This document shows positions 3,401 through 19,877 of a DNA stretch of 21,476 bases, piece after piece. A model generated the notes under the pieces. It saw nothing but the letters and a program-made list of their open reading frames with translations. It was not told the origin of the DNA and searched no databases. This DNA is from a virus: positions 1-21,476 of IMG/VR virus record IMGVR_UViG_3300040751_000309. One strand, given 5' to 3'. The translations under genes were made by a program, and so were the position numbers. Position 1 is the first letter of the stretch; each line of letters opens with the position of its first letter.

Positions 3401-4064
3401 AAGGTGGGTTAAGCTCAGAAGCTCGATCCCGAAGAATTGGAATCAGGTAACGATCGAACAATTCATTCAGCTGAACGATCTTCCTCAGACTTCAAACGAA
3501 GTCACGAACTTAGTCAATAAGCTGACTGTATTAACAGGACTCACAGCTGAACAGATCAGATCAATGTCAGCTCAAGAGATTCAGAAAATTAATAAGCGAC
3601 TGAGCTTCTTGTCAGAGCTTCCTAAAGAGAAGGACGTTAAGAGCTTCAGCTTTAAAGGGAAGAATTATAAAAGAGATAAGATCGAATTCTCGACTGTTGC
3701 TCAGGTCACTGATCTACTTCAGATGAATCAGGACGAGGAGAACGTCGGAGCGAAGATATTAAACGCGATCGCTGTGATATATTATCGAGACGGAGAGTCT
3801 GAATATACAGCTCAGAGATTCAAACAAATGAAGGACGAACTCCTGACTCTTCCCTTCCCTGTCGCTTTAAATTCGTCGGTTTTTTTTTCTCGTGGCTTGA
3901 GGAGATTTTTTCCCGACGTTTTAAGGGACTCTTTGAAGAAGCTGACGATTCAACAGACGGAGAACCTGATCCAAGGGATAGAGAACGAATCAGAATCGAA
4001 CGACTTCGGAAGGTTTTTCAATGGTACGACTTCACTCTCGGACTTGCTTCAGGAGACGTCTTAA
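3357..4064 (+). CDS. Tail assembly chaperone, short (unshifted) form
   Basis: The unshifted frame gives 235 residues. After a basic N-terminal stretch of about 22 residues comes IPKNWNQVTIEQFIQL, then a helical middle, then LPFPVALNSSVFF near residue 165-177. This resembles proteins of Bacteroidetes phages thought to be tail assembly chaperones, which coat the tape measure protein before the tube polymerises. After the T9 run (3880-3888) the zero frame continues for 58 codons rich in codons this phage seldom uses and ends at 4062-4064. I think this tail is either the short form of a two-form chaperone (as G in phage lambda) or a product of reading past a shift site. The start at 3357 is the only ATG near the N-terminus and has an A-rich leader. 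Confidence 0.6.
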   Translation: MKRFKKLLKRLKTLKRWVKLRSSIPKNWNQVTIEQFIQLNDLPQTSNEVTNLVNKLTVLTGLTAEQIRSMSAQEIQKINKRLSFLSELPKEKDVKSFSFKGKNYKRDKIEFSTVAQVTDLLQMNQDEENVGAKILNAIAVIYYRDGESEYTAQRFKQMKDELLTLPFPVALNSSVFFSRGLRRFFPDVLRDSLKKLTIQQTENLIQGIENESESNDFGRFFNGTTSLSDLLQETS

Positions 4065-4165
4065 AATATGCGGAAGCTTCCCGGATAACATTCGTCGAAG
4101 CTTGTATTTATTACGGATATAATAAACAGTATAAAAATGCAATTAACACTGAAGGAACTAACTGA
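3357..4165 (+). CDS. Tail assembly chaperone, long form by -1 frameshift
   Basis: Slippage at T TTT TTT (3881-3887) moves reading from codons starting at 3885 to codons starting at 3887 and gives about 269 residues: 177 from the zero frame and 92 from the -1 frame. The joined region reads SSVFFFSWLEEIFSRRFKGL, and further on VFQWYDFTLGLASGDVLKYA, then a stop at 4163-4165. WYDFTxxLAxGDVLKY is the kind of sequence I associate with the second part of tail chaperones in Bacteroidetes phages, and its codons (GGA, GAC, GTC, GCT) match the rest of the genome. This parallels the G/GT pair of lambda. A single-base deletion in the T run or an assembly error would give the same picture. It overlaps the next gene by 29 bases. 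Confidence 0.6.
3880..3888 (+). promoter_or_regulatory. Candidate -1 ribosomal frameshift site (T9 run)
   Basis: Nine T residues follow GGT context as GTT TTT TTT TCT in the zero frame, giving the slippery heptamer T TTT TTT at 3881-3887. Both frames stay open downstream, and the -1 frame carries the more protein-like sequence. A short possible stem (TCTC 3888-3891 with GAGA 3902-3905) and another (TCCC 3911-3914 with GGGA 3925-3928) lie just after; neither is strong. Confidence 0.55.
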
Positions 4166-4595
4166 CAAGCTTAAAGACTTGCTTCTGACTCACGCTAAGC
4201 TCAAGGACGTTAACGTCTGTACTTACGACGATCTTCTGATCAAGGTCAGCGAAAATAAAAACGAATATTTCGGAGCGTTTATAGTTTATGATCTGAGACA
4301 GATTCAGCTCCTTGAATGGTCGACAGTTATCCCTTTAACGATTATCTTCGCTGACAAGCTGAGACCGAACCGGGAGAATGAAATATTTATTCATTCAGAT
4401 ACTGTCTCGATCGCTGTCGATTCTGTCAAAATGATTCGAGATTATTGTCGCGATAATGGTCTTGACGGACTTGATCAGGTCACTCTTGATATATGGTCAG
4501 AGGACGAATCAGATTCGAGACTCGCGGGATCAAAGATCGACTTCTTAATGAACTTAAATATCGGGGGTTATTGTGACGTCCCGCTTAATTCGTAA
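4137..4595 (+). CDS. Tail terminator / head-tail joining-like protein
   Basis: A 152-residue soluble protein. It begins with a helix (LTLKELTDKLKDLLLTHAKL), continues with beta-like strands (FGAFIVYDLRQIQL, STVIPLTIIFAD) and a long helix around residues 88-105 (SIAVDSVKMIRDYCRDNG), and ends with a strand-rich segment containing IDFLMNLNIGGYCD. This order matches tail terminator or tail completion proteins, which cap the finished tube and join it to the head. Fold-level resemblance and position (before a gp10-like gene) support the call; no decisive motif exists. It starts inside the frameshifted end of the chaperone gene, preceded by TATAAAA. Confidence 0.45.
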   Translation: MQLTLKELTDKLKDLLLTHAKLKDVNVCTYDDLLIKVSENKNEYFGAFIVYDLRQIQLLEWSTVIPLTIIFADKLRPNRENEIFIHSDTVSIAVDSVKMIRDYCRDNGLDGLDQVTLDIWSEDESDSRLAGSKIDFLMNLNIGGYCDVPLNS

Positions 4596-4613
4596 CAATC
4601 AAAAATTAATAAA

Positions 4614-5378
4614 ATGAGAATCTATCAATTAAACAACGTGATTATCTGTGAGAAGCTCACAGAGAAAATAGCTTTTAATCCTTCTATGACTACTTATGAC
4701 GTTAACACAGAGGAGGGAGTCGTTACTGTCATGGAGCGAACAGATTATAAAAAAATGATCTCAGCTGATATCTCAGATATTCAGGACGGAGACGGGACTT
4801 CAATTATCGGAGAGAAAGCGATTCACACTTATATCTCACAGCTTATAAATTTTAAGACGTCCGCGGGAGGAAGCGTCGGACTATTTGCACAGGTCGAAGA
4901 AGGAAGAGCTATCACGACAGTCGGAGAGAAGACTCTTCTCGGGACGGGAGTCGGGAGCTTGTCTGTTCCCGCTGATACTTTTCAGATTGGAGACTCTTAT
5001 CACTTTAAAATCGGAGGAATCTTAACAGCTGACGGAACAGGAGGAACTCCGACAGAGATTAATTTCAAAATCAAGAACGGACTGAACGTTATCGCTGAAT
5101 CGGGAGCGATTGAATTTAATTCTGTCAGCGGAACAGGGTGGGAGATTGAACTCGATTTTACAATCTCTCAGATCGGATCGAGAGGAGTCTTGTTCACGAA
5201 TGGAGACTTATCTTATATTGAAGACGGAGCTCAAGAATTATCCGGTTTTGTTTTTGAGTCGAAACTTCCTATCGATACAACAGTCGACAGCGTTCTTGAC
5301 GTAACAGCTGAATTCGTTACTATCAACACAGGAGACTCAATTCAATCGGTTAACGCTGTATTATATAAAACATATTAA
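4614..5378 (+). CDS. Virion structural protein with a jelly-roll-like middle
   Basis: A 254-residue protein with two apparent parts. Residues 1-85 hold a pattern seen in Bacteroidetes phage virion proteins (FNPSMTTYDVNTEEGVVTV, then ADISDIQDGDGTSI and IHTYISQLINF). Residues about 105-225 are rich in beta strands and Gly/Thr (TFQIGDSYHFKIGGILTAD, FNSVSGTGWEIELDFTISQIG), like the jelly-roll domains of decoration or tail proteins. It could be a tail or fibre-associated protein; I cannot choose between these. The leader ATCAAAAATTAATAAA directly before the ATG is almost the same as the one before the endolysin. Its stop overlaps the next start (TAATG). Confidence 0.5.
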   Translation: MRIYQLNNVIICEKLTEKIAFNPSMTTYDVNTEEGVVTVMERTDYKKMISADISDIQDGDGTSIIGEKAIHTYISQLINFKTSAGGSVGLFAQVEEGRAITTVGEKTLLGTGVGSLSVPADTFQIGDSYHFKIGGILTADGTGGTPTEINFKIKNGLNVIAESGAIEFNSVSGTGWEIELDFTISQIGSRGVLFTNGDLSYIEDGAQELSGFVFESKLPIDTTVDSVLDVTAEFVTINTGDSIQSVNAVLYKTY

Positions 5379-5908
5379 TGACAGAGGAGGAGCTTATCGG
5401 GAGTCTGAATAAGTGGGGAGCTTCTGTCGTTTCTGATATGGTTTCTTTTTTAGGGACTATCGGGAAGACTAACACAGGAGCTCTCGCTGAATCTCTTCGA
5501 GCTGAAGCTCGGAAGGACGGAGAGAATATCGTCCTCGAATTCTTCGGAAATAATTACAGTGAATTCGTTCGTCAAGGAGTTAAGGGATCAGTCAGTTCGC
5601 GTAAAGCTCCGAACAGTCCTTTCAGATTCGGATCAGGAACAGGAGAGAAAGGAGGACTTCGTCGATCTATTGACAAGTGGGTTATCACGAAAGGGATCAG
5701 CGGAATCAGAGACGAGCGCGGACGCTTTATAAAGAGGAAGAGTCTCGTCTTCCTGATCTCTCGAAAGATTTATCGATTCGGGATCAAACCGACGAATTTT
5801 GTCTTCCCGTTCTTCAAACGACAGGACGAGCTTGTCGAACTTATCGGAAAGGAGTTCGCTGATATTGTACTAAATGAATTAAGATCGGCTTTCAATGGTA
5901 ACAAATAA
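5378..5908 (+). CDS. HK97 gp10-like / virion morphogenesis protein
   Basis: A 176-residue protein with features of the gp10-like head-tail joining family: an N-terminal helix, TGALAESLRAEARKDG, then an FGNNYSEFVRQGVKG segment (the position of the family's Y-x-x-Y/F-V-x-x-G motif), followed by RKAPNSPFRFGSG, a segment KWVITKGISG, and a C-terminal helical tail with LVFLISRKIYRFGIKP. Such proteins act in tail completion or as head-tail adaptors. It starts on TAATG with the previous stop and overlaps the following gene by 14 bases, so it sits inside one tightly coupled tail block. Confidence 0.55.
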   Translation: MTEEELIGSLNKWGASVVSDMVSFLGTIGKTNTGALAESLRAEARKDGENIVLEFFGNNYSEFVRQGVKGSVSSRKAPNSPFRFGSGTGEKGGLRRSIDKWVITKGISGIRDERGRFIKRKSLVFLISRKIYRFGIKPTNFVFPFFKRQDELVELIGKEFADIVLNELRSAFNGNK

Positions 5909-8096
5909 CAATACACTCCCGGAGCTTTATCCGGCTTTTAACAAGAATCTTCTTGAGATTGAATCGTCAAATTTTACAAAGGAGAAACATAACTATATTC
6001 TGGACGTTTTAACAGATAGGACTCTTCACGATACAGTCGTTCAGGGAACTCTGTTCGGCTTTACTTATCCGGCTATTTTTGGAGGGATAGGAACGTCAGC
6101 GTTAACTCCGGGAGATTATGTCCTTGTCAACGTTATTACAGGAGCTTTTAATTATTCAGGGATATATCGAGTCGTCCTGATCCCTAACGATTCGACTGTG
6201 ATTATCGAAGCTGATTTTTTAGGGACAATCACAGGAGGAGAAATTGAAGTCTTTAAGATTTTCAGGAATAAGCTTCCCGCGAACCCTGAAGGAAGAGCGA
6301 TCTTCGACGTCAACGGCTTCAGCGTCGGAAGAGTGACAGAGGACTTCAGTCTGAATAACGTCGGAGCTTTTAACGTCCCGAACTCGTTTGACCGCTTTCA
6401 GACTCTGAGCTCTGAGGAGTTTTATCAGAACTTGACGACCGGAGCGATCGTCGATAATAACGGACTGATAAAAGTGACAGACGTTCAAGGAGGGGAGCTC
6501 GAGATCGGGGGCTTCGTTAATTATATTAACGACAATCCTTCGACGACGATTTATAACGGGATATTCGAGATAGTCGATATCGAGATTGACGCGTTCGGTC
6601 AGACTAACGTCACTCTGAACAGATCGTTCTCTGTTGGAGTTTTATCGACAGGGATATTTATAACGTTCCCGAAGGTCGCTCAGAATTATCGCGATCTTAA
6701 TCAGATCACTGATCCGAAGCTGATCTTTAACGGAGCTCTTCCTTATCCTGAGATTTTGAACTTTGATCCTGTCGCTTTCGATATGTCTCAATTCGCTTCA
6801 GCGGACTTTTTGACGACAGCTCCGACAGTGAACAAGATTAAGCTCAATCAAAGAGCTTACACTCAATTTTATCAGAGCGTTAACACAACAGCGACTCAGT
6901 TCCTTGTCACAGTCACAGACGAGAACGGAATCGATCACGAATATATCGTTCAGTTTTCAGCTTCTCCTGATAACTTTATCGGACTCGCTGTCGGGACTTA
7001 TGATCTTAATCAGCTTGATCCTTCTGACTTTATTCAAGTTTCTCCTCGAGGACTTCCGATAATTCAAGAGTGTGATTTGTCTTACTGTGTTAATTTATAC
7101 GGAGAGGACAGCTGTGATATTAACGGACTTCAGACGACGAACTTTGCTCACCCTTACCCTTCTGTTTTAAGTCCTTCTTTGTGGACTCAGACGTCTTCTC
7201 AGTTTATGAATATCGAAGTTCTTGATCTTGAGATCGGAGGAGTCTCTCAGGTAGTCACTCCGACAGGGAATAACTACAATCAAGCAACAGTAACGGGACA
7301 GACGGAAGAAGAAATATATTCGGACGAGATAGCTCTTCAGACGGGTCTAAATATTCAGAGCTCTGGCAGTTACGGATCAGGACTCTCTTCGGGTCATTGG
7401 ATCGAGGTCGATCAGGATCAAGATTTTAAAATGACAGTCCGACTCAGACTCTTCGGAGCTTCAGTCTTATCCGGATTAAAAGTCGTCGTATTTTATGAAT
7501 GGGACTCTTCGACTTGTACGGCTACATATAAGCTAACGAACGGAGTAAAGCCTGTGACAGTAGGATTAAATAATCCGAATCAAGTTATATTTACTCAGAA
7601 CCTGAAGGGGTGGATCGGACTTCAGTCCTTCCCGATTAATCCTCTTCTGATCTCTTCGTCTTTATGCTTTGAGCTTGATTACACTCCTTTTGCTTATCGA
7701 GGAATTCGTCTCTTATTTCAGGATAGGCTCGGATCGTTTATCGGGTTTAATATGAACCTGAAGACAATCAGAAAGCTGTCTACTTCTTCGGACGGATATG
7801 AAGTCGATCGATATCAGATCGGAGACTTGTCAACTATTTCAAGAGGGTTCAAAACTATTCAGACAAGTTACTCTGAAGCGTGGGACTTAAACTCTGACTT
7901 CTTAACAGAAGAGGAAGTTCGATATCTTGAGGAAGCTCTCACAAGTCCGAACGTATTTATTCAGGACGGGGATCAGGTTCTTCCTGTTATAATAGAACCG
8001 AAGACAGAGACGATCCCGTCGAAAGAGAACAACGATCTTCGAAGACTCCTGATCACGATCAGAGTCAACGGGACTCAATATTCACAGAGAAATTAA
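5895..8096 (+). CDS. Large tail protein, distal tail / tail-tip type
   Basis: A 733-residue, strand-rich, Cys-poor protein apart from a cluster around residues 395-410 (ECDLSYCVNLYGEDSCDI). The N-terminal 300 residues contain repeated beta-sandwich-like sequence; the C-terminal part has FQDRLGSFIGFNMNLKTIRK, then a segment with WDLNSDFLTEEEVRYLEEAL, TSPNVFIQDGD and VLPVIIEPKTETI. The L-x-S-x-(W/F)-L-T-E-E-E then SPxV pattern is typical of big tail proteins of Bacteroidetes phages that sit at the tail tip upstream of the next gene's product. Exact role (distal tail protein, hub or adhesin) is inference. It starts inside the preceding gene by 14 bases. Confidence 0.6.
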   Translation: MVTNNNTLPELYPAFNKNLLEIESSNFTKEKHNYILDVLTDRTLHDTVVQGTLFGFTYPAIFGGIGTSALTPGDYVLVNVITGAFNYSGIYRVVLIPNDSTVIIEADFLGTITGGEIEVFKIFRNKLPANPEGRAIFDVNGFSVGRVTEDFSLNNVGAFNVPNSFDRFQTLSSEEFYQNLTTGAIVDNNGLIKVTDVQGGELEIGGFVNYINDNPSTTIYNGIFEIVDIEIDAFGQTNVTLNRSFSVGVLSTGIFITFPKVAQNYRDLNQITDPKLIFNGALPYPEILNFDPVAFDMSQFASADFLTTAPTVNKIKLNQRAYTQFYQSVNTTATQFLVTVTDENGIDHEYIVQFSASPDNFIGLAVGTYDLNQLDPSDFIQVSPRGLPIIQECDLSYCVNLYGEDSCDINGLQTTNFAHPYPSVLSPSLWTQTSSQFMNIEVLDLEIGGVSQVVTPTGNNYNQATVTGQTEEEIYSDEIALQTGLNIQSSGSYGSGLSSGHWIEVDQDQDFKMTVRLRLFGASVLSGLKVVVFYEWDSSTCTATYKLTNGVKPVTVGLNNPNQVIFTQNLKGWIGLQSFPINPLLISSSLCFELDYTPFAYRGIRLLFQDRLGSFIGFNMNLKTIRKLSTSSDGYEVDRYQIGDLSTISRGFKTIQTSYSEAWDLNSDFLTEEEVRYLEEALTSPNVFIQDGDQVLPVIIEPKTETIPSKENNDLRRLLITIRVNGTQYSQRN

Positions 8097-11910: not shown

Positions 11911-14697
11911 GTGGCTGAACAGGTAAATATTAAAGTATTAATTGACGCGACAAAAAGCTCGAAGACTTTACAAGAGCTCGAGAACAATGTCGAGAACTTG
12001 AACGACGCTCTCAACGAAGTTCCTGAAGGGTCTCAGGCTTTTGATCAATTAACGGAAGCGATCGAAGACAGTTCAGATCAGGCTCTTGAACTGGCTGTTA
12101 ATATTGATAAATCGAAGGCGACTATCGGAGAACTCGAACGATCGATCGAAGTATTATCAGAAGAGCTCAAGGGAGTCGAAAGAGGATCAAACGAATTCGG
12201 TCGTCTCAGCTCTGAACTTATTGAAGCGAATCGTCAGCTTAAGAACGTTGAGTTAAGTCTCGAGGCTCTCGATACTGAACAGGTCGCTTCTGAACTTGGA
12301 TCAGTGACAGGAGCTGTCGGAGACGTGACAGCTTCCTTCATTCTTCTCGGAGGGGAAGGGAATGAAACACTTGAAGAGATCGGTCGAAATTTAGAGATCG
12401 CGATCGGATTAAGTACGGGAGTTAAGGGAGCGATCGAAGGAATTCAGTCCGGGATTAAATTATACAAGAATCTCGGAGATCAGATCAAACAGTCGAACGT
12501 ATTTATAAAACTCGCGACAGTTTCTCAGTCCGCGTGGAATGTAGTTCAGGGAGTTTTCTCAAAGGTCGTCGGAGGATCGACGAAAGCTGTCAACGGCTTT
12601 AAGGTCGCTCTGATCTCGACAGGAATCGGAGCTTTAATAGTTTTGATCGGGACGCTTGTCGCTCAGTGGGAAAATATCACGAAGGCTTTAAGCTTTACGA
12701 CTGACGCTCAGAATCGTCAGAACGAAGTTAGCTCTCAAGCTATTGAGAAAGCGGGAGAAGAGCTCTCAGCAATTGACAAGCTTCAGAAAGCTATTCAGTC
12801 CGGGAACTTATCGAGAGAGCAACAGATCGACGCTGTCAAAGATTTACAGGAACAATATCCGGACTTACTTCAGAATATTGACGCTGAAAAAATAACTCGG
12901 GAGGAGCTTAACGAAGCTCTCCGTCTTAACGCTGAATTGATAGAACTTAAAGCTCAAGCTGATGCGATCGCGGAGCTCAGAGCTGAATCTTACAAACAGA
13001 TACTTCAAGAACAAGCTGACGCTCAAACAGGAGCGAATGTCGGAATCATTGACTATATACAATCGTTAGGGACAGGAGTCGAGGCTCAAGATTTAGCTAA
13101 CTTCAAAACAAAAGAAAGGATTCAAGGCTTAAAAGATGAAACTAAAGCCTACGACGAACTCGACAGGGGAATTCAGGACTCAATTAATTCTCTTGAGGTC
13201 AAGCTCGGAGTCGATCGAGAAGCTGAAGAAGCAAGGAAGAAAGAGGAAGAGGATCAGAAAAAAGCTGAAGCTGAAGCGAAGAAGCGACAAGCTGAAGCTA
13301 AGAGGAGAGCGGAAGAAAAGAAGCGACAAGCTGAAGAACAGAGGAAAGCTGAGGAGAAGAGACTCAGCGATCTCGCTATTCTCGAAGAAGAATTTTTTCA
13401 GAAGTCACTCGCGACAGACGAAGAGAGAGAAGCTCGTCGATTAACACTCGCGTTCGAAGCTCAGAGAAAAAGAATCGAGTCTCTTGTTAAAGACGACGAA
13501 AAACTGAAGACGCTTCTTAAACAGAATGAAGAGTTTTTTCAAAAGGACTTACAAGCTATCGAGGACAAATATTCTAAAATTGACGAAGACAAAAGGAGAG
13601 AGCTAAATAATAAAAAGATTCAGAGCTCGAGAAACGTCGCGATAATTGAGGAACAGATCAGACTTGAAAGCTTAACCGATCAGGAGAGAGCGGGAGAGGA
13701 GGGTCTTAAAATACTTAACAAGATCAATGATCTAAAAATCGAACAGCTCCGGGAGAACAGAGATATCGAACTTCAGAACACTGAGTTAACAGCTGAGGAA
13801 CGTCTTGAGATCGAGAAAAAATATCTACTTGAAGAAGAGAAGATTAATAATGAATCACGAAGAAGAGAAGCGGAAGCGGACGCTGAAGCGAATAAATCAA
13901 AAGCTGAACGGAGGAAAGCTCTTAAAGATGAACTGATCTCCCTCGCTTTTGATACAGCTCAGGCAGTTTCAGATTTAGCTTTCGAGATAGCTGAACAGGA
14001 GGCTCAGAGAGAGTCTGAAATGAGACTCGAAAATCTTGACAATACTTTCAACGCTGAACAAGATCGACTTAATCAGAAGGTTGAAGACGGGTTAATAACT
14101 CAAGCGGAAGCGGATCGACAGTCCGCGGAACTCGAGAAGAAGAAGAACGCGGAAGCTCTCAAGGAACAGAAGAGACTCTTCACAGAACAGAAGAAGAGAC
14201 AGAAGACTCAAGCTGTTATTAATGGAGCTTTAGCCTTCACGAATGCACTGGCGACGACTCAGCCACTAGTACCGGCGGGTCTTATTGCGGGAGCGGGAGT
14301 CTTGATCTCGACAGGGGTTCAGATCGCGAAGATCGAGAGTCAGAAGTTCGCGAAGGGTGGAATCTTATCAGGGAAGAGTCACGCTCAGGGAGGAATAAAA
14401 ACTCCATTCGGAGAACTCGAAGGAGGGGAGGCTGTTATAAATAAGAGATCGACAAACATGTTCAAGGGAACGCTTTCAAGAATTAATGAAGCGGGGGGAG
14501 GAGTTCGCTTCGCTTCGGGTGGAATTTTAGGACAAGGAACTTCTCAGGGGACGACTCAGGAAGGGACTGATCTCGGAGGAATTTTAACAACTTTAAACGA
14601 CAGATTATCACAACCGATCAGATCGTTCGTCGTCGAGAGTGATGTCTCAGAGACTCAAAATCGAGTCTCAAGACTTGAAAAGAACGCGGACTTATAA
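11911..14697 (+). CDS. Tail tape measure protein
   Basis: A 928-residue protein starting at GTG (no in-frame ATG lies between it and the previous stop). It is highly helical: N-terminal coiled-coil residues 15-125, a hydrophobic segment at about 231-251 (VALISTGIGALIVLIGTLVA), a Lys/Glu/Ala-rich coiled coil at about 437-486, and another at about 690-775. The end shows FAKGGILSGKSHAQGGI and ELEGGEAVINKRST, the usual C-terminal signature of tape measure proteins in Bacteroidetes phages. It sets tail length and is ejected with the DNA. At roughly 0.15 nm per residue the tail would be near 140 nm (inference). Stop TAA at 14695-14697, followed at once by a hairpin terminator. Confidence 0.9.
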   Translation: MAEQVNIKVLIDATKSSKTLQELENNVENLNDALNEVPEGSQAFDQLTEAIEDSSDQALELAVNIDKSKATIGELERSIEVLSEELKGVERGSNEFGRLSSELIEANRQLKNVELSLEALDTEQVASELGSVTGAVGDVTASFILLGGEGNETLEEIGRNLEIAIGLSTGVKGAIEGIQSGIKLYKNLGDQIKQSNVFIKLATVSQSAWNVVQGVFSKVVGGSTKAVNGFKVALISTGIGALIVLIGTLVAQWENITKALSFTTDAQNRQNEVSSQAIEKAGEELSAIDKLQKAIQSGNLSREQQIDAVKDLQEQYPDLLQNIDAEKITREELNEALRLNAELIELKAQADAIAELRAESYKQILQEQADAQTGANVGIIDYIQSLGTGVEAQDLANFKTKERIQGLKDETKAYDELDRGIQDSINSLEVKLGVDREAEEARKKEEEDQKKAEAEAKKRQAEAKRRAEEKKRQAEEQRKAEEKRLSDLAILEEEFFQKSLATDEEREARRLTLAFEAQRKRIESLVKDDEKLKTLLKQNEEFFQKDLQAIEDKYSKIDEDKRRELNNKKIQSSRNVAIIEEQIRLESLTDQERAGEEGLKILNKINDLKIEQLRENRDIELQNTELTAEERLEIEKKYLLEEEKINNESRRREAEADAEANKSKAERRKALKDELISLAFDTAQAVSDLAFEIAEQEAQRESEMRLENLDNTFNAEQDRLNQKVEDGLITQAEADRQSAELEKKKNAEALKEQKRLFTEQKKRQKTQAVINGALAFTNALATTQPLVPAGLIAGAGVLISTGVQIAKIESQKFAKGGILSGKSHAQGGIKTPFGELEGGEAVINKRSTNMFKGTLSRINEAGGGVRFASGGILGQGTSQGTTQEGTDLGGILTTLNDRLSQPIRSFVVESDVSETQNRVSRLEKNADL

Positions 14698-14986: not shown

Positions 14987-16648
14987 ATGGAAACTTTGAA
15001 CGGTCTTCCCGTCCTCAGAATTACGATCGACGAAGCTCGATCAGATCACGGAGTCGATAAGATATCTCTTGTCGATCTTCCCGCTATTGAGGAGAATTTT
15101 TTGACTTTCTCTAAAGAAGAAAATCAGGTTCTTGAGGAGACGTTCAAGTTTTTGAGTGACGAACAGATGAAACTCGCGGGAGCTTTTTTAATCCCTGATA
15201 AACCTATTTTAAGACGTGACCCGAAGACGAATCAGGAGTTTTACGTCGTGTTCCCGGAGGAAGTTATCAGAGAGATCGCTGATCGATTTAATCAGAACCT
15301 TTACGGGAATAGCTTTAACGAACAACATGAGACAGACGTGAAGGACGTCTTCGTCTCTGAGAATTGGATTATCGAGGACAGCCAAAAAGATAAAAGCTCT
15401 TTTAAATTTGGTTTCAGTTATCCGGTCGGAACTTGGTTCGGGATCGTAAAAGTTAATAACTCTGATCTGTGGGATAACAAGATCAAGACAGGGGAGCTCA
15501 GAGGGTTCTCTGTTGAACTTCTCGCTGGTCTTAAGTTCGCGATCGACTCGAAGCTGATCGAAGATCACGCTCTTAAGGTTATGGAAGAAGAGCAAGGACT
15601 CGGGGAAGAACTTCCGAAGGGAGCGATCCTGATCAGTGAGTCTGATATCTCAGATAATGAGAACGATTTTAATCTTGACGAAGTTGATCTTGAACAACTT
15701 GAGAAAGATCACGGACTCGAGTTCAGAGTCACAGCTGATCCTCAAGCGAACAGCTCTCTCGATCGACTTAAGATCGGGAAGGACGGGACTCCTGTCGGTC
15801 AGTGGTTAGTCCGTTATAAGTACGACGGAGTTCGAGACGATAAAAATCGTTCATTCTGTGCTCGAGTTTTAGACTATCAGCTGAGAACAGGAAGAGTCTT
15901 CAGGAAAGAGGACGTCGATCAAATGTCATTCAGGGGAGAGAACAGGGAGTTCGGGATATATTCGATCTTTACTTATAAGGGTTCATATGGCTGTCGTCAC
16001 AAGTGGAAGAGATTGATCTTCTTCGTTGACTTCGAAGACAAAGAGACAAGAGCTGTCGGGAACGTTCCCGGAGTGACTTCCTCAATTAACGATTCTGAAG
16101 CAAGGAAGAAGAACGCTAAACCGACAAGAAGTAACTTATCAAAAACAGATAACAAAATGAGTGAATTGAAAACTAAATTCGAGACGATCGAAGAGCTTAC
16201 TCCTGAACAGAGAGTTCTCGACGCTCAAGTCGACAACGAAGACGGGACTTATACTGTCGAGGGAGTGACTTATCAGGTTACTGAGGGAAGAATCACAGAG
16301 ATAATGGAGGAGACTCCTGAAGCTCCTGAGACTCCTGAAGCTACTGAGACTCCTGAGACTCCTGAAGCTCCTGATTCTGACGAATGGAAAATGGAAGTAA
16401 TGAATAAGATCGCTGAGCTTGAGGCAAAAATCGAGCAAATTATGAACGCGATGAACGGAACAGACTCAACGTCTTCGGAACAATTTTCGAAGGTAGAACT
16501 TGAGGAAGTTCTTTCGAAGTTTATGAGCGAACTTAAACCCGCTGAGAACAAAAACGATCAGAAGTCTGATCCTTCTTCAAAGGAGAAGACAGCGGACAAG
16601 GTCGAGAGTGTGATCGTCACGCTTTCAAAAATGAGAAGTAAAAAGTAA
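14987..16648 (+). CDS. XkdF-like prohead protease with Cys/His domain and scaffold-like tail
   Basis: I choose ATG 14987 (TAGTAAAT before it) over an upstream TTG; 553 residues. Residues about 60-180 match the XkdF-like phage serine protease pattern: AGAFLIPDKPILRRD, FYVVFPEEVIREIADRF, SFNEQH with likely catalytic His114, and GELRGFSVEL with likely Ser175. Residues about 268-346 (VGQWLVRYKYDG ... FCARVL ... YKGSYGCRHKW) form a second domain with Cys291, Cys336 and His338, recalling the end of MuF-like head proteins. Residues 391-553 are acidic, helical and low-complexity with an ETP repeat, like a scaffold. The protein would shape the prohead and then cleave scaffold. An internal ATG at 16157 may give the scaffold alone. 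Confidence 0.75.
   Translation: METLNGLPVLRITIDEARSDHGVDKISLVDLPAIEENFLTFSKEENQVLEETFKFLSDEQMKLAGAFLIPDKPILRRDPKTNQEFYVVFPEEVIREIADRFNQNLYGNSFNEQHETDVKDVFVSENWIIEDSQKDKSSFKFGFSYPVGTWFGIVKVNNSDLWDNKIKTGELRGFSVELLAGLKFAIDSKLIEDHALKVMEEEQGLGEELPKGAILISESDISDNENDFNLDEVDLEQLEKDHGLEFRVTADPQANSSLDRLKIGKDGTPVGQWLVRYKYDGVRDDKNRSFCARVLDYQLRTGRVFRKEDVDQMSFRGENREFGIYSIFTYKGSYGCRHKWKRLIFFVDFEDKETRAVGNVPGVTSSINDSEARKKNAKPTRSNLSKTDNKMSELKTKFETIEELTPEQRVLDAQVDNEDGTYTVEGVTYQVTEGRITEIMEETPEAPETPEATETPETPEAPDSDEWKMEVMNKIAELEAKIEQIMNAMNGTDSTSSEQFSKVELEEVLSKFMSELKPAENKNDQKSDPSSKEKTADKVESVIVTLSKMRSKK
16157..16648 (+). CDS. Nested scaffold protein from an internal start (candidate)
   Basis: In frame with the protease, ATG at 16157-16159 (residue 391) is preceded by AAAACAGATAACAAA, very like the leader of the capsid gene (CAAATAACAAACAGATAAAA). 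Translation from here gives 163 residues beginning MSELKTKFETIEELTPEQ, with a beta-like VDNEDGTYTVEGVTYQVTEG, a Pro/Glu linker, a helix (MEVMNKIAELEAKIEQIMNA) and a Lys-rich end, all fitting a capsid scaffold. Lambda C/Nu3 and related phages make scaffold in this nested way. That this start is used is inference. Confidence 0.45.
   Translation: MSELKTKFETIEELTPEQRVLDAQVDNEDGTYTVEGVTYQVTEGRITEIMEETPEAPETPEATETPETPEAPDSDEWKMEVMNKIAELEAKIEQIMNAMNGTDSTSSEQFSKVELEEVLSKFMSELKPAENKNDQKSDPSSKEKTADKVESVIVTLSKMRSKK
16310..16372 (+). repeat. Seven tandem 9-base units coding Glu-Thr/Ala-Pro
   Basis: Seven in-frame copies of GAG ACT CCT or GAA GCT CCT (one ends in ACT) encode a Pro/Glu-rich linker in the scaffold-like part of the protease gene. 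The units differ only at a few bases, so the array could gain or lose copies by slippage. It links the beta-like part to the helical part. Confidence 0.85.
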
Positions 16649-16679
16649 CAAATAACAAACAGATAAAAACCTTAAAAAA

Positions 16680-17573
16680 ATGGGAATTGTTATCACTAAA
16701 CCGGAATACAGAGGAACAGAATTAACTGAATTCTATACAAGAGCGTTTTACAAGAAGAACGCTGTTGATCGCTTCACGATCTTACCGGGGGTCAAAGATA
16801 AATTTGGGGCGAATTTTTTAAATTTTGACGGAACAGTTCTCGGAGCTGACGGCTGTGAATTTAATCCGAACGTTAACGTCGCGTTGACTGAGAAAAATTT
16901 GAATGTAGATACTTACTCGATAGATTTTGAGGAGTGTGTTTCAACTTTCGAACAGTCTTATCTCGCTGACGAATTAAGAGCGGGAGCTAATAACGTTGAC
17001 TTTCCGGCTTCTTTTGAGGAGTGGTTGATGAGTAAACTTCCTGAAGCTATCGCTGACGAGCTTGAGCGTAAAGCTTTTACAGAATTATCGACTGAGTTAG
17101 CGGGAGACTTGAACGCTGTCGCTGTGACTATCGATCCGATCACGACAACGAACGCGATCGACGAAATCGGGAAAGTTTATGAAGGAATCCCGGGAGAACT
17201 TTTCGGCGATCCTGAACTTGTAATTATGATGAACGTGAACACTTGGAAGAAATATCTTCAGAGCGCTTTCGATACTTCAGTTCCTCAGTTAATCACTGAC
17301 GGGATCACAATGACTTATCTTGGTGTTCAGCTTGTTCCCGCTCCTGTTTATAACCTTGCAAAAGGTGGCGGACTTCAAGACAATGTACTTATCGCGGGTA
17401 AACTTTCAAACTTTATCAGAGCGACTGACTTACTTTCTGACGACGCGGAGCTTAACATGATCGATCTTCGTCAAACGACAGGAGACAAAAAGATCAGAGT
17501 AACAGGACGTCTGAAATTTAAATGTACTTACGCGATCTCTGAGGAGGTTGTTTATGCTACAACAGCTCCTTAA
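16680..17573 (+). CDS. Major capsid protein (HK97 fold)
   Basis: A 297-residue protein with the order expected of an HK97-type capsid protein: an N-terminal arm, the segment DRFTILPGVKDKFGANFLNF, an E-loop-like region, a long helix around FPASFEEWLMSKLPEAIADE, then the P domain strands GDPELVIMMNVNTWKKYLQ, VQLVPAPVYNLAKG and DNVLIAGKLSNFIRATDL, and a final strand KFKCTYAISEEVVYA. No cleavable N-terminal delta domain is visible, in line with a separate scaffold. A long A-rich leader (16649-16679) precedes the ATG, fitting strong translation, and a strong terminator follows. It lies directly after the protease/scaffold gene. Confidence 0.85.
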   Translation: MGIVITKPEYRGTELTEFYTRAFYKKNAVDRFTILPGVKDKFGANFLNFDGTVLGADGCEFNPNVNVALTEKNLNVDTYSIDFEECVSTFEQSYLADELRAGANNVDFPASFEEWLMSKLPEAIADELERKAFTELSTELAGDLNAVAVTIDPITTTNAIDEIGKVYEGIPGELFGDPELVIMMNVNTWKKYLQSAFDTSVPQLITDGITMTYLGVQLVPAPVYNLAKGGGLQDNVLIAGKLSNFIRATDLLSDDAELNMIDLRQTTGDKKIRVTGRLKFKCTYAISEEVVYATTAP

Positions 17574-18262: not shown

Positions 18263-18523
18263 ATGATTCACGCTCAAGAAGGGAATAACACTCTGTTTGT
18301 TTACTCAACGAACGAAGCTCTCACGGACTTCGAGATTACGCTTCAGGGAAAGGAGATCAGAGAAAGAGTCGAAGAGACTTATCCTCTGACTATTATCGAT
18401 TTTAATAACTCTTTTTTTGAGCTTCAGCTCGAGCTTCCTGTTCTTAATTCTGTTGAGTGGTCTTATCAGATAACTTCAGGAGCTGAAATAATTGACTCAG
18501 GACTTTTAAGATATGGCTCTTAG
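18263..18523 (+). CDS. Unknown 86-residue protein
   Basis: A small, beta-rich, acidic protein (for example DFEITLQGKEIRERVEETYP, then SFFELQLELPVLNSVEWSY and ending in GLLRYGS), preceded by the A-rich leader GGATAAAAA. The strand pattern recalls a small immunoglobulin-like or head-decoration fold, but I do not recognise the family. It follows a strong terminator and overlaps the portal start by 11 bases, so it is probably made with the portal. A T7 run lies inside it at about 18412-18418 without an evident alternative frame. Confidence 0.6.
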   Translation: MIHAQEGNNTLFVYSTNEALTDFEITLQGKEIRERVEETYPLTIIDFNNSFFELQLELPVLNSVEWSYQITSGAEIIDSGLLRYGS

Positions 18524-19877
18524 AGATTTATTCAGGTTCACAGCTTCCGAACCTATCAAAGAAGAAACGAAGGACGAGATCGGAAACTTCTCCGTCCCTC
18601 GAGGAAGTTATCACGACAGCTCTGAGCTCGATATTAAAGAGAACAAGTCTGATCACATTTATAATTTCGGACGATTGAACGACTTCCCTCGGAAGCTTGT
18701 CGACTTATACGATACCTCTCCGACGAATCAGGCGATCGTCAACAGAACAGCCTTAATGATCGCGGGAGGAGATATCGAGATTGAGGGAGAGGGAAGCGTC
18801 TTCGATATGGTTCACGCGATCTCACTGAAGAACTTCGCGAACTCAAGACAGAACTTATATCAGGTTTTATATCAGATCGCTTTTGATCTTAAGCTTCACG
18901 GACGTTACGGAATTGAATGTATATGGAACGAAGATCACTCGAAAATCGTTCAAATAAAGAGAGTCGACGCTGAAGGGATCAGAGTCGGATTAATGGAGAA
19001 CGGAGAAGTAACTTCTTATTATTGGTCTGAGGATTGGAAGGACAAGAAAGCGAAGCGGGTTAAATACGCTCCCTTCGATAAATACGGAGAAGAGTCCCGT
19101 CAGCTTCTTTACTTTCAGTTAATCCGATCAGGTCACGAAGTTTACGGACTTCCTGATTATTACGCTTCTTTGAAGTGGATCGATCTTGAGTCTCAGATCG
19201 GAGCTCATTATCTTGATTCAGCTCTTAACGGGTTCAGTCCGAAGCTCTCAGTCGTCTTCCCGGCTAAACCTGAAAGCGAAGAGATCGAAGATCGCATAAT
19301 GAAGAGACTGAACGAAAAATACACTGGCTCACTCGGGAAGAAAGTTATCGGAATATTCGCTCCTCGTCCTGAGCTTAAACCTGAATTTAATCCGATCAAC
19401 GTCGAGAACCTTGACAAACAATATCAAGTAATTGACGAACAGACTCAGAACAAAATCTTAACGGGTCACGGAGTCGTTTCTCCGATGTTATTCGGGATCA
19501 AGACTCCGGGTCAGCTCGGAGGGTCTCAGGAACTCGAGACAGCTTTCTCGATCTATCAGTCGACAGTCGTCTCTCCTTATCAGGATATTATCGAGAGAAG
19601 TCTTAACTCAATACTCGAAGCTTCAGGATCGTCTCTGAGATTCTCTCTCTCTGAGTTCGAGATAATTAATAAGAACGTCGAAGTCGAAGGAGAACAGGGA
19701 TCGAAGGTCGCGGAAGCTCTCAATAAGATGTCTCCTCTTGTCGCTTCGAAGGTTCTCGATAATTTGACTCAGAATGAGATCAGAGCTCTCGGAGGATTGG
19801 AAGGAATCGAAGGAGGTGATCTGACGAAGTCTCAACAGGAACAACAGTCTCAAGAATTTAAAAAGAGCAAAGAATGA
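18513..19877 (+). CDS. Portal protein
   Basis: A 454-residue protein that forms the ring through which DNA enters the head. Visible portal features: IYNFGRLNDFPRKLVDLYDT near residue 50, SPTNQAIVNRTALMIAGG, then GHEVYGLPDYYASLKWIDLE around residue 208-227 (the YGxPxYxxAL-like wing motif), DSALNGFSPKLSVVF, a basic stem region, and LTGHGVVSPMLFGIKTPGQLGG with the long C-terminal helix. The order and length fit the portals of Bacteroidetes siphoviruses. The far C-terminus is Gln/Lys/Ser-rich. It lies far from the terminase (about 16 kb), which is unusual because the two genes are commonly neighbours. Its stop overlaps the next start as ATGA. Confidence 0.85.
   Translation: MALRDLFRFTASEPIKEETKDEIGNFSVPRGSYHDSSELDIKENKSDHIYNFGRLNDFPRKLVDLYDTSPTNQAIVNRTALMIAGGDIEIEGEGSVFDMVHAISLKNFANSRQNLYQVLYQIAFDLKLHGRYGIECIWNEDHSKIVQIKRVDAEGIRVGLMENGEVTSYYWSEDWKDKKAKRVKYAPFDKYGEESRQLLYFQLIRSGHEVYGLPDYYASLKWIDLESQIGAHYLDSALNGFSPKLSVVFPAKPESEEIEDRIMKRLNEKYTGSLGKKVIGIFAPRPELKPEFNPINVENLDKQYQVIDEQTQNKILTGHGVVSPMLFGIKTPGQLGGSQELETAFSIYQSTVVSPYQDIIERSLNSILEASGSSLRFSLSEFEIINKNVEVEGEQGSKVAEALNKMSPLVASKVLDNLTQNEIRALGGLEGIEGGDLTKSQQEQQSQEFKKSKE

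Follow-up and report, generated by a model that had tools for sequence, protein, structure and literature searches.

The DNA analysed here, referred to as the window, is the whole IMG/VR record IMGVR_UViG_3300040751_000309 (21,476 bases), and is probably derived from a member of the Bacteroidota phages. It contains a single ORF that combines an N-terminal capsid protease and a C-terminal scaffold-like region and lies directly 5′ of the capsid gene, the ATG of the capsid candidate being located 31 bases past the stop of the ORF (Table 1). The upstream neighbour is a long coiled-coil-rich gene (11911–14697), which is tape-measure-like by appearance. The assignment of an XkdF-type protease in the preliminary description of this DNA was borne out by the Peptidase_S78_2 domain, which scored 52.9 bits against the gathering cut-off of 24 and was the sole significant Pfam match of the ORF; searches of Pfam and NCBIfam gave no named family for the Cys/His domain or the scaffold. 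The N-terminus (MExxxGxPVL) is kept in the aligned relatives. The AlphaFold2 model of the full protein, built with five sequences, had a pLDDT of 40 and was used for rough secondary structure only. The C-terminal tail contains 39 Asp/Glu against 19 Lys/Arg, and is regarded as a putative scaffold on the basis of its position, acidity, predicted helices, and precedent rather than homology to a proven scaffold.

Table 1. Features of the protease/scaffold locus and neighbouring head genes in the window
Feature	Position	Strand	Remarks
Full-length ORF, 553 aa	14987..16648	+	XkdF-type protease, Cys/His domain, and putative scaffold tail; ATG 14987
Peptidase_S78_2 (XkdF) domain	15155..15517	+	Pfam PF14550, E=4.8e-14, residues 57–177
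Cys/His domain	about 15785..16057	+	BLASTP 9e-8 to Nonlabens P12024L portal; HMM survey; alignment
Linker, ~33 residues, from Cys/His domain to internal start	16058..16156	+	Length and sequence vary among relatives (alignments)
SD-less A/T-rich leader of the putative internal start	16137..16156	+	A at −3, −6, −12, −13; AACAGATAA at 16144–16152
Putative nested scaffold ORF, 163 aa, pI 4.3	16157..16648	+	Opened by internal ATG (Met391)
Second AACAGATAA	16658..16666	+	Within the capsid gene leader
Major capsid protein candidate	16680..17573	+	phrog_11320, 4e-20; weak match to major head protein phrog_10, 1.3e-3
Portal protein	18513..19877	+	PHROG portal, 1.3e-28; without C-terminal Cys/His domain

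As had been noticed earlier, the ATG at 16157 is in frame with the full-length ORF and opens the acidic tail. It had also been placed exactly at the border between the Cys/His domain and the scaffold; it does coincide with the beginning of the scaffold region, but a linker separates it from the Cys/His domain. The further claim that its leader is nearly the same as that of the capsid gene held only in part, because at equal spacing no more than 11 of 20 bases match, and five of 167 other ATGs, four of them predicted gene starts, match the capsid leader better. What the two leaders have in common is AACAGATAA, which occurs three times in the window against 0.26 expected and lies at different distances from the scaffold and capsid ATGs. 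The capsid leaders (16649–16679 in the window, and the corresponding segment in L003, L005, L007, L088, and L009) carry a (A)CCTWAAAA element before the ATG, which was not seen in the scaffold leader. The start leaders of these phages show no Shine–Dalgarno (SD) pattern; G is scarce between −12 and −7, and A is overrepresented between −14 and −9 and between −5 and −2. Such an SD-less, A-rich pattern has been described for Bacteroidetes, and in Flavobacterium johnsoniae initiation is favoured by A at −3, −6, −12, and −13 (PMC6847099); the leader of ATG 16157 has A at all four positions. The promoter motif TANNTTTG was absent from the up to 300 nt preceding the internal ATG in all six records searched.

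Relatives were gathered by IMG/VR scans with portal, protease, and capsid alignments, an initial scan with the protease alone having given none. The closest named relatives are the Nonlabens phages P12024L and P12024S (36% identity over the protease), to which the matches of a tblastn search with the whole ORF against 50,697 phage records were confined. Three arrangements were found. In the clade of the window (group A; seven members, namely the window, L003, L005, L007, L009, L088, and L099), the protease, Cys/His domain, and scaffold are in one ORF. In groups B (Nonlabens, L052, L104, and L106–L111) and B2 (L031, L041, and L049), the protease and scaffold share one ORF without the Cys/His domain. 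In the third arrangement (L016, L025, L114, L143, and others), the protease ORF ends before the scaffold, which has an ORF of its own. Relatives at greater distance were numerous. A scan of GTDB genomes with the capsid protein gave no match, and one with the protease gave two Sphingobacteriaceae prophage-like loci, both with separate scaffolds. In the protease-domain tree, the fused state requires about two changes (bootstrap range, 2–3), and may have a single origin.

The window and its relatives also have peculiarities of composition. Throughout the window (1–21476), motif avoidance is extreme: CCA, GCC, CAT, TAG, GCA, TGC, and CTA occur at 0.1–0.4 of expectation, of which only the avoidance of CAT, GCA, and TGC is shared by the relatives, and out-of-frame (+1) ATGs number 71 where synonymous shuffling predicts 163. 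The window has 282 GATC sites in its 21 kb, and the 9.3 kb of L003 analysed has none, a contrast possibly linked to methylation or restriction.

Fused relatives lacking an ATG at the junction, which by the preliminary description would have spoken against the internal start, did not occur: a junction Met is present in all 24 different fused ORFs, which as relatives are not independent samples (L088 and L099, for example, are near-identical in the protease/scaffold region). Every member of group A has the Met within varying neighbours (TDNKMSEL, NKLNMNKD, NKLNMYKE, NSINMKNE, NKIEMSEE, and NTNMKIN), the automatic alignment placing it a few columns off in some of these rows. The linkers around the junction Met likewise change (EVKMSE, EVNMSEN, KEQPMSDN, NNQDMSKS, NQVNMSEQ, and KDTNMSTQ), and in group B Ser follows the Met directly throughout. 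Since a Met within a linker of 15–30 residues is not rare by itself, the weight lies on the leader and the alignment. Some proteases have long tails yet no Met at the junction (L112, L121, L141, and others). They were considered as counterexamples and set aside, as their tails hold other domains and the scaffold, where found, is a separate ORF. A mobile segment of ~80 residues (YxDYPxxVxxNAKRG...CGTxVGKxRAxQLA...IxRMYSYLSRH) is located either in the N-terminal part of the protease or in the C-terminal tail of some relatives (L033, 55–1014; L112, L155, and L121).

The matrix used to score the leader was derived from 148 starts and 536 internal ATGs, with the tested family left out each time and two false gene starts of the window (13136 and 14020) excluded. 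In all seven members of group A, no other internal in-frame ATG of the record scores as high as the border ATG (number of internal ATGs above it, 0/48 in the window and 0/25, 0/35, 0/34, 0/5, 0/28, and 0/15 in the others), which lies at the 38th–78th percentile of real starts. When every codon of the ORF is ranked by leader score, the border codon comes 1st–3rd in five of six records and 15th in the sixth, and local RNA pairing at the border is below that of 96–100% of internal ATGs. When synonymous codons were permuted within the eight codons preceding the border ATG, the P values were 0.0018 (window), 0.0013 (L009), 0.021 (L003), 0.027 (L088), 0.031 (L007), and 0.053 (L005), indicating that the peptide alone does not account for the leader; by calibration on 175 other internal ATGs, 6.3% fell at P ≤ 0.05 and none at P ≤ 0.002. 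Judged by these nucleotide patterns, the scaffold border appears to have both an internal start codon in frame and a signal for initiation. The fused relatives without the Cys/His domain (groups B and B2) have A/T-rich leaders of modest score (9th–36th percentile of starts; shuffle P, 0.016–0.68). If the bulk scaffold of group A has to be free of the Cys/His domain, a stronger leader there would be expected.

In about 56 relatives, the same scaffold has a gene of its own, which starts at its own ATG and lies downstream of the protease. A profile built exclusively from 12 of these separate scaffolds recognized the fused tails with E-values of 3e-24 to 4e-14 for groups B and B2, and of 6e-6 for the window. 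By counting back, a procedure that assumes no insertions or deletions, position 1 of the profile was placed 1–3 residues from the internal Met in L002, L050, L054, L104, L106, L107, and L109, 7–13 residues off it in L108, L110, L052, and L111, and 11–14 residues before it in group B2. The group A matches start at a more internal position, so that the profile is silent on the position of the Met in the clade of the window. The independent mapping of the start comes from this separate-scaffold profile only, the one used for the junction-Met survey having been trimmed relative to the Met.

The alignment of 17 members of the Cys/His domain has seven invariant residues (R, C, Y, G, C, H, and W), and the shared R..C...C.H.W pattern, together with the BLASTP match, indicates homology to the C-terminal Cys/His domain of portal proteins such as those of phrog_33693. 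The domain is found at the portal C-terminus in Nonlabens, L051, L052, L042, and L044, and as a short ORF of its own, downstream of the portal gene, in L031 (6670–7134), L034, L041, and L049. The portals of the separate-scaffold group (L016–L033) have a more divergent domain, accepted on the aligned pattern at profile E-values of 0.04 or worse. In group A, it is inside the protease gene and the portal is devoid of it. The domain thus moves between genes, as exemplified by the window (15785–16057), the L002 portal (3405–5087), and the L031 ORF. Its structure model (pLDDT, 70) gave no PDB match below E = 4.5, and sequence searches gave no solved relative; against viral models, the matches were weak, with the best at 7.6e-3 and the second, a 531-aa XkdF protein, at 0.065. 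In the L025 portal (4926–6923; separate-scaffold group), a winged-helix DNA-binding-like segment (HTH_24, 1.3e-9; residues 505–552) precedes the Cys/His domain. Because the portal location is widespread, the direction of the move is taken to be from portal to protease. We suggest, tentatively and as one possibility among others, that a portal-type domain has moved into the protease gene upstream of the scaffold start, so that the long form alone would carry it and dock the protease, and with it scaffold nucleation, at the portal vertex, leaving the bulk scaffold free of it. Such a docking role is plausible by analogy with lambda, whose initiator complex is made up of portal, protease, and scaffold (PMC3224144).

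Altogether, the leader tests in the clade of the window, the junction Met, the split relatives, and the profile mapping outside the clade agree with the earlier proposal that a separate scaffold arises from an in-frame internal start. On these sequence comparisons, we estimate at roughly four in five the probability that protease and scaffold form a nested gene here, resembling lambda C/Nu3 or Mu I/Z, in which the internal ATG makes the scaffold as a protein of its own. Ribosomes starting at ATG 14987 would produce a 63-kDa protein consisting of the protease, portal-type Cys/His domain, and scaffold, and those initiating de novo at ATG 16157, behind the A-rich, weakly structured, SD-less leader of Bacteroidota type, would produce the 18-kDa scaffold alone. 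The short form is presumed to be made in excess over the long form, and would constitute the bulk of the scaffold core. The long form, in fewer copies, would bring the protease into the procapsid through the shared scaffold tail, and may be targeted to the portal vertex by its Cys/His domain; the protease would then degrade the scaffold core.

Other explanations were weighed against the nested gene. Only the full-length protein might be made, with the scaffold being freed by self-cleavage near the junction, in a P2-like manner; the Met and leader would then be incidental, or the peptide would be the cleavage site. P2 and lambda indeed have protease and scaffold in one gene (PMC8508860), and several close relatives retain a short peptide (ENFNKLN and variants) in front of the Met. 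The peptide of the window itself differs (SNLSKTDNK), though, and the Met is retained while the linker length and flanking residues change; moreover, the leader nucleotides go beyond what the peptide needs, and in many relatives the scaffold has its own gene. We consider cleavage without internal initiation to be unlikely.

Still less probable is that the locus is a relic of fusion, in which a once separate scaffold gene lost the preceding stop and its old start and leader persist without function. The similar A/T-rich leaders of the separate scaffold genes and the approximately two fusions suggested by the tree would fit this history, but the window and its relatives have ~50% protein identity and 32–39% identical synonymous codons, a distance at which a leader free of selection would be expected to have drifted, whereas this leader still scores as a start across the clade. 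Least credible is pure chance, by which an Asn/Lys-rich linker would give A/T-rich codons and happen to contain a Met. The linker peptides are in fact rich in amino acids with A/T-rich codons, and with ~2% Met assumed, we estimate that about one-quarter to one-half of such linkers would contain one; this is hard to reconcile with its presence in every fused ORF, the top rank of the leader in the entire clade, and the calibrated synonymous shuffles. Each of the three agrees with part of the data, but none accounts at once for the leader, the junction Met, and the split relatives.

A nested gene at this locus would extend the lambda/Mu route to much scaffold and little protease to phages with an S78_2 protease and SD-less starts of Bacteroidota type, and would provide an example of an SD-less start embedded in a coding sequence. 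The split and fused relatives offer a natural experiment on the origin of nested genes. As phage genes of this kind are annotated as one hypothetical protein, including that of an isolate, Nonlabens phage P12024L (gp01), the scaffold protein is probably missing from the annotation.

In lambda C/Nu3, the scaffold is made from an internal in-frame start and the capsid gene is located downstream. The window is alike in having an N-terminal protease and a C-terminal putative scaffold in one frame, a probable internal start, and a downstream capsid gene, and is unlike it in the S78_2 type of the protease (Pfam), the SD-less start, and the portal-type domain between protease and scaffold. The lambda parallel drawn in the preliminary description therefore holds as a way of working, but does not extend to homology of the protease with lambda gpC, in view of the single Pfam family and the Nonlabens-only tblastn matches; no lambda match was found for the window protease, and any homology would have to be very distant. 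The nested arrangement of lambda (PMC8508860, citing Shaw and Murialdo 1980) has counterparts in Mu I/Z and in gene 27 of the Mu-like phage PaMx73 (PMC4378225), the starts of which have SD sequences (with a Val codon in PaMx73), unlike the ATG with the A-rich Bacteroidota leader in the window. Among S78_2 proteins, PBSX XkdF is comparable in the protease domain, which in the window scores above the curated cut-off, but the Pfam model covers the protease alone, and a nested scaffold is outside the family definition. A similar organization is seen in gp01 of P12024L (Inhavirus), in which an XkdF protease is fused to a scaffold tail with the junction Met in KMSEEKK; it differs in that the Cys/His domain is absent from the protease and located at the portal C-terminus. 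The nested arrangement itself is known from lambda and Mu, and what would be distinct here is its setting, namely the SD-less starts and the S78_2 protease.
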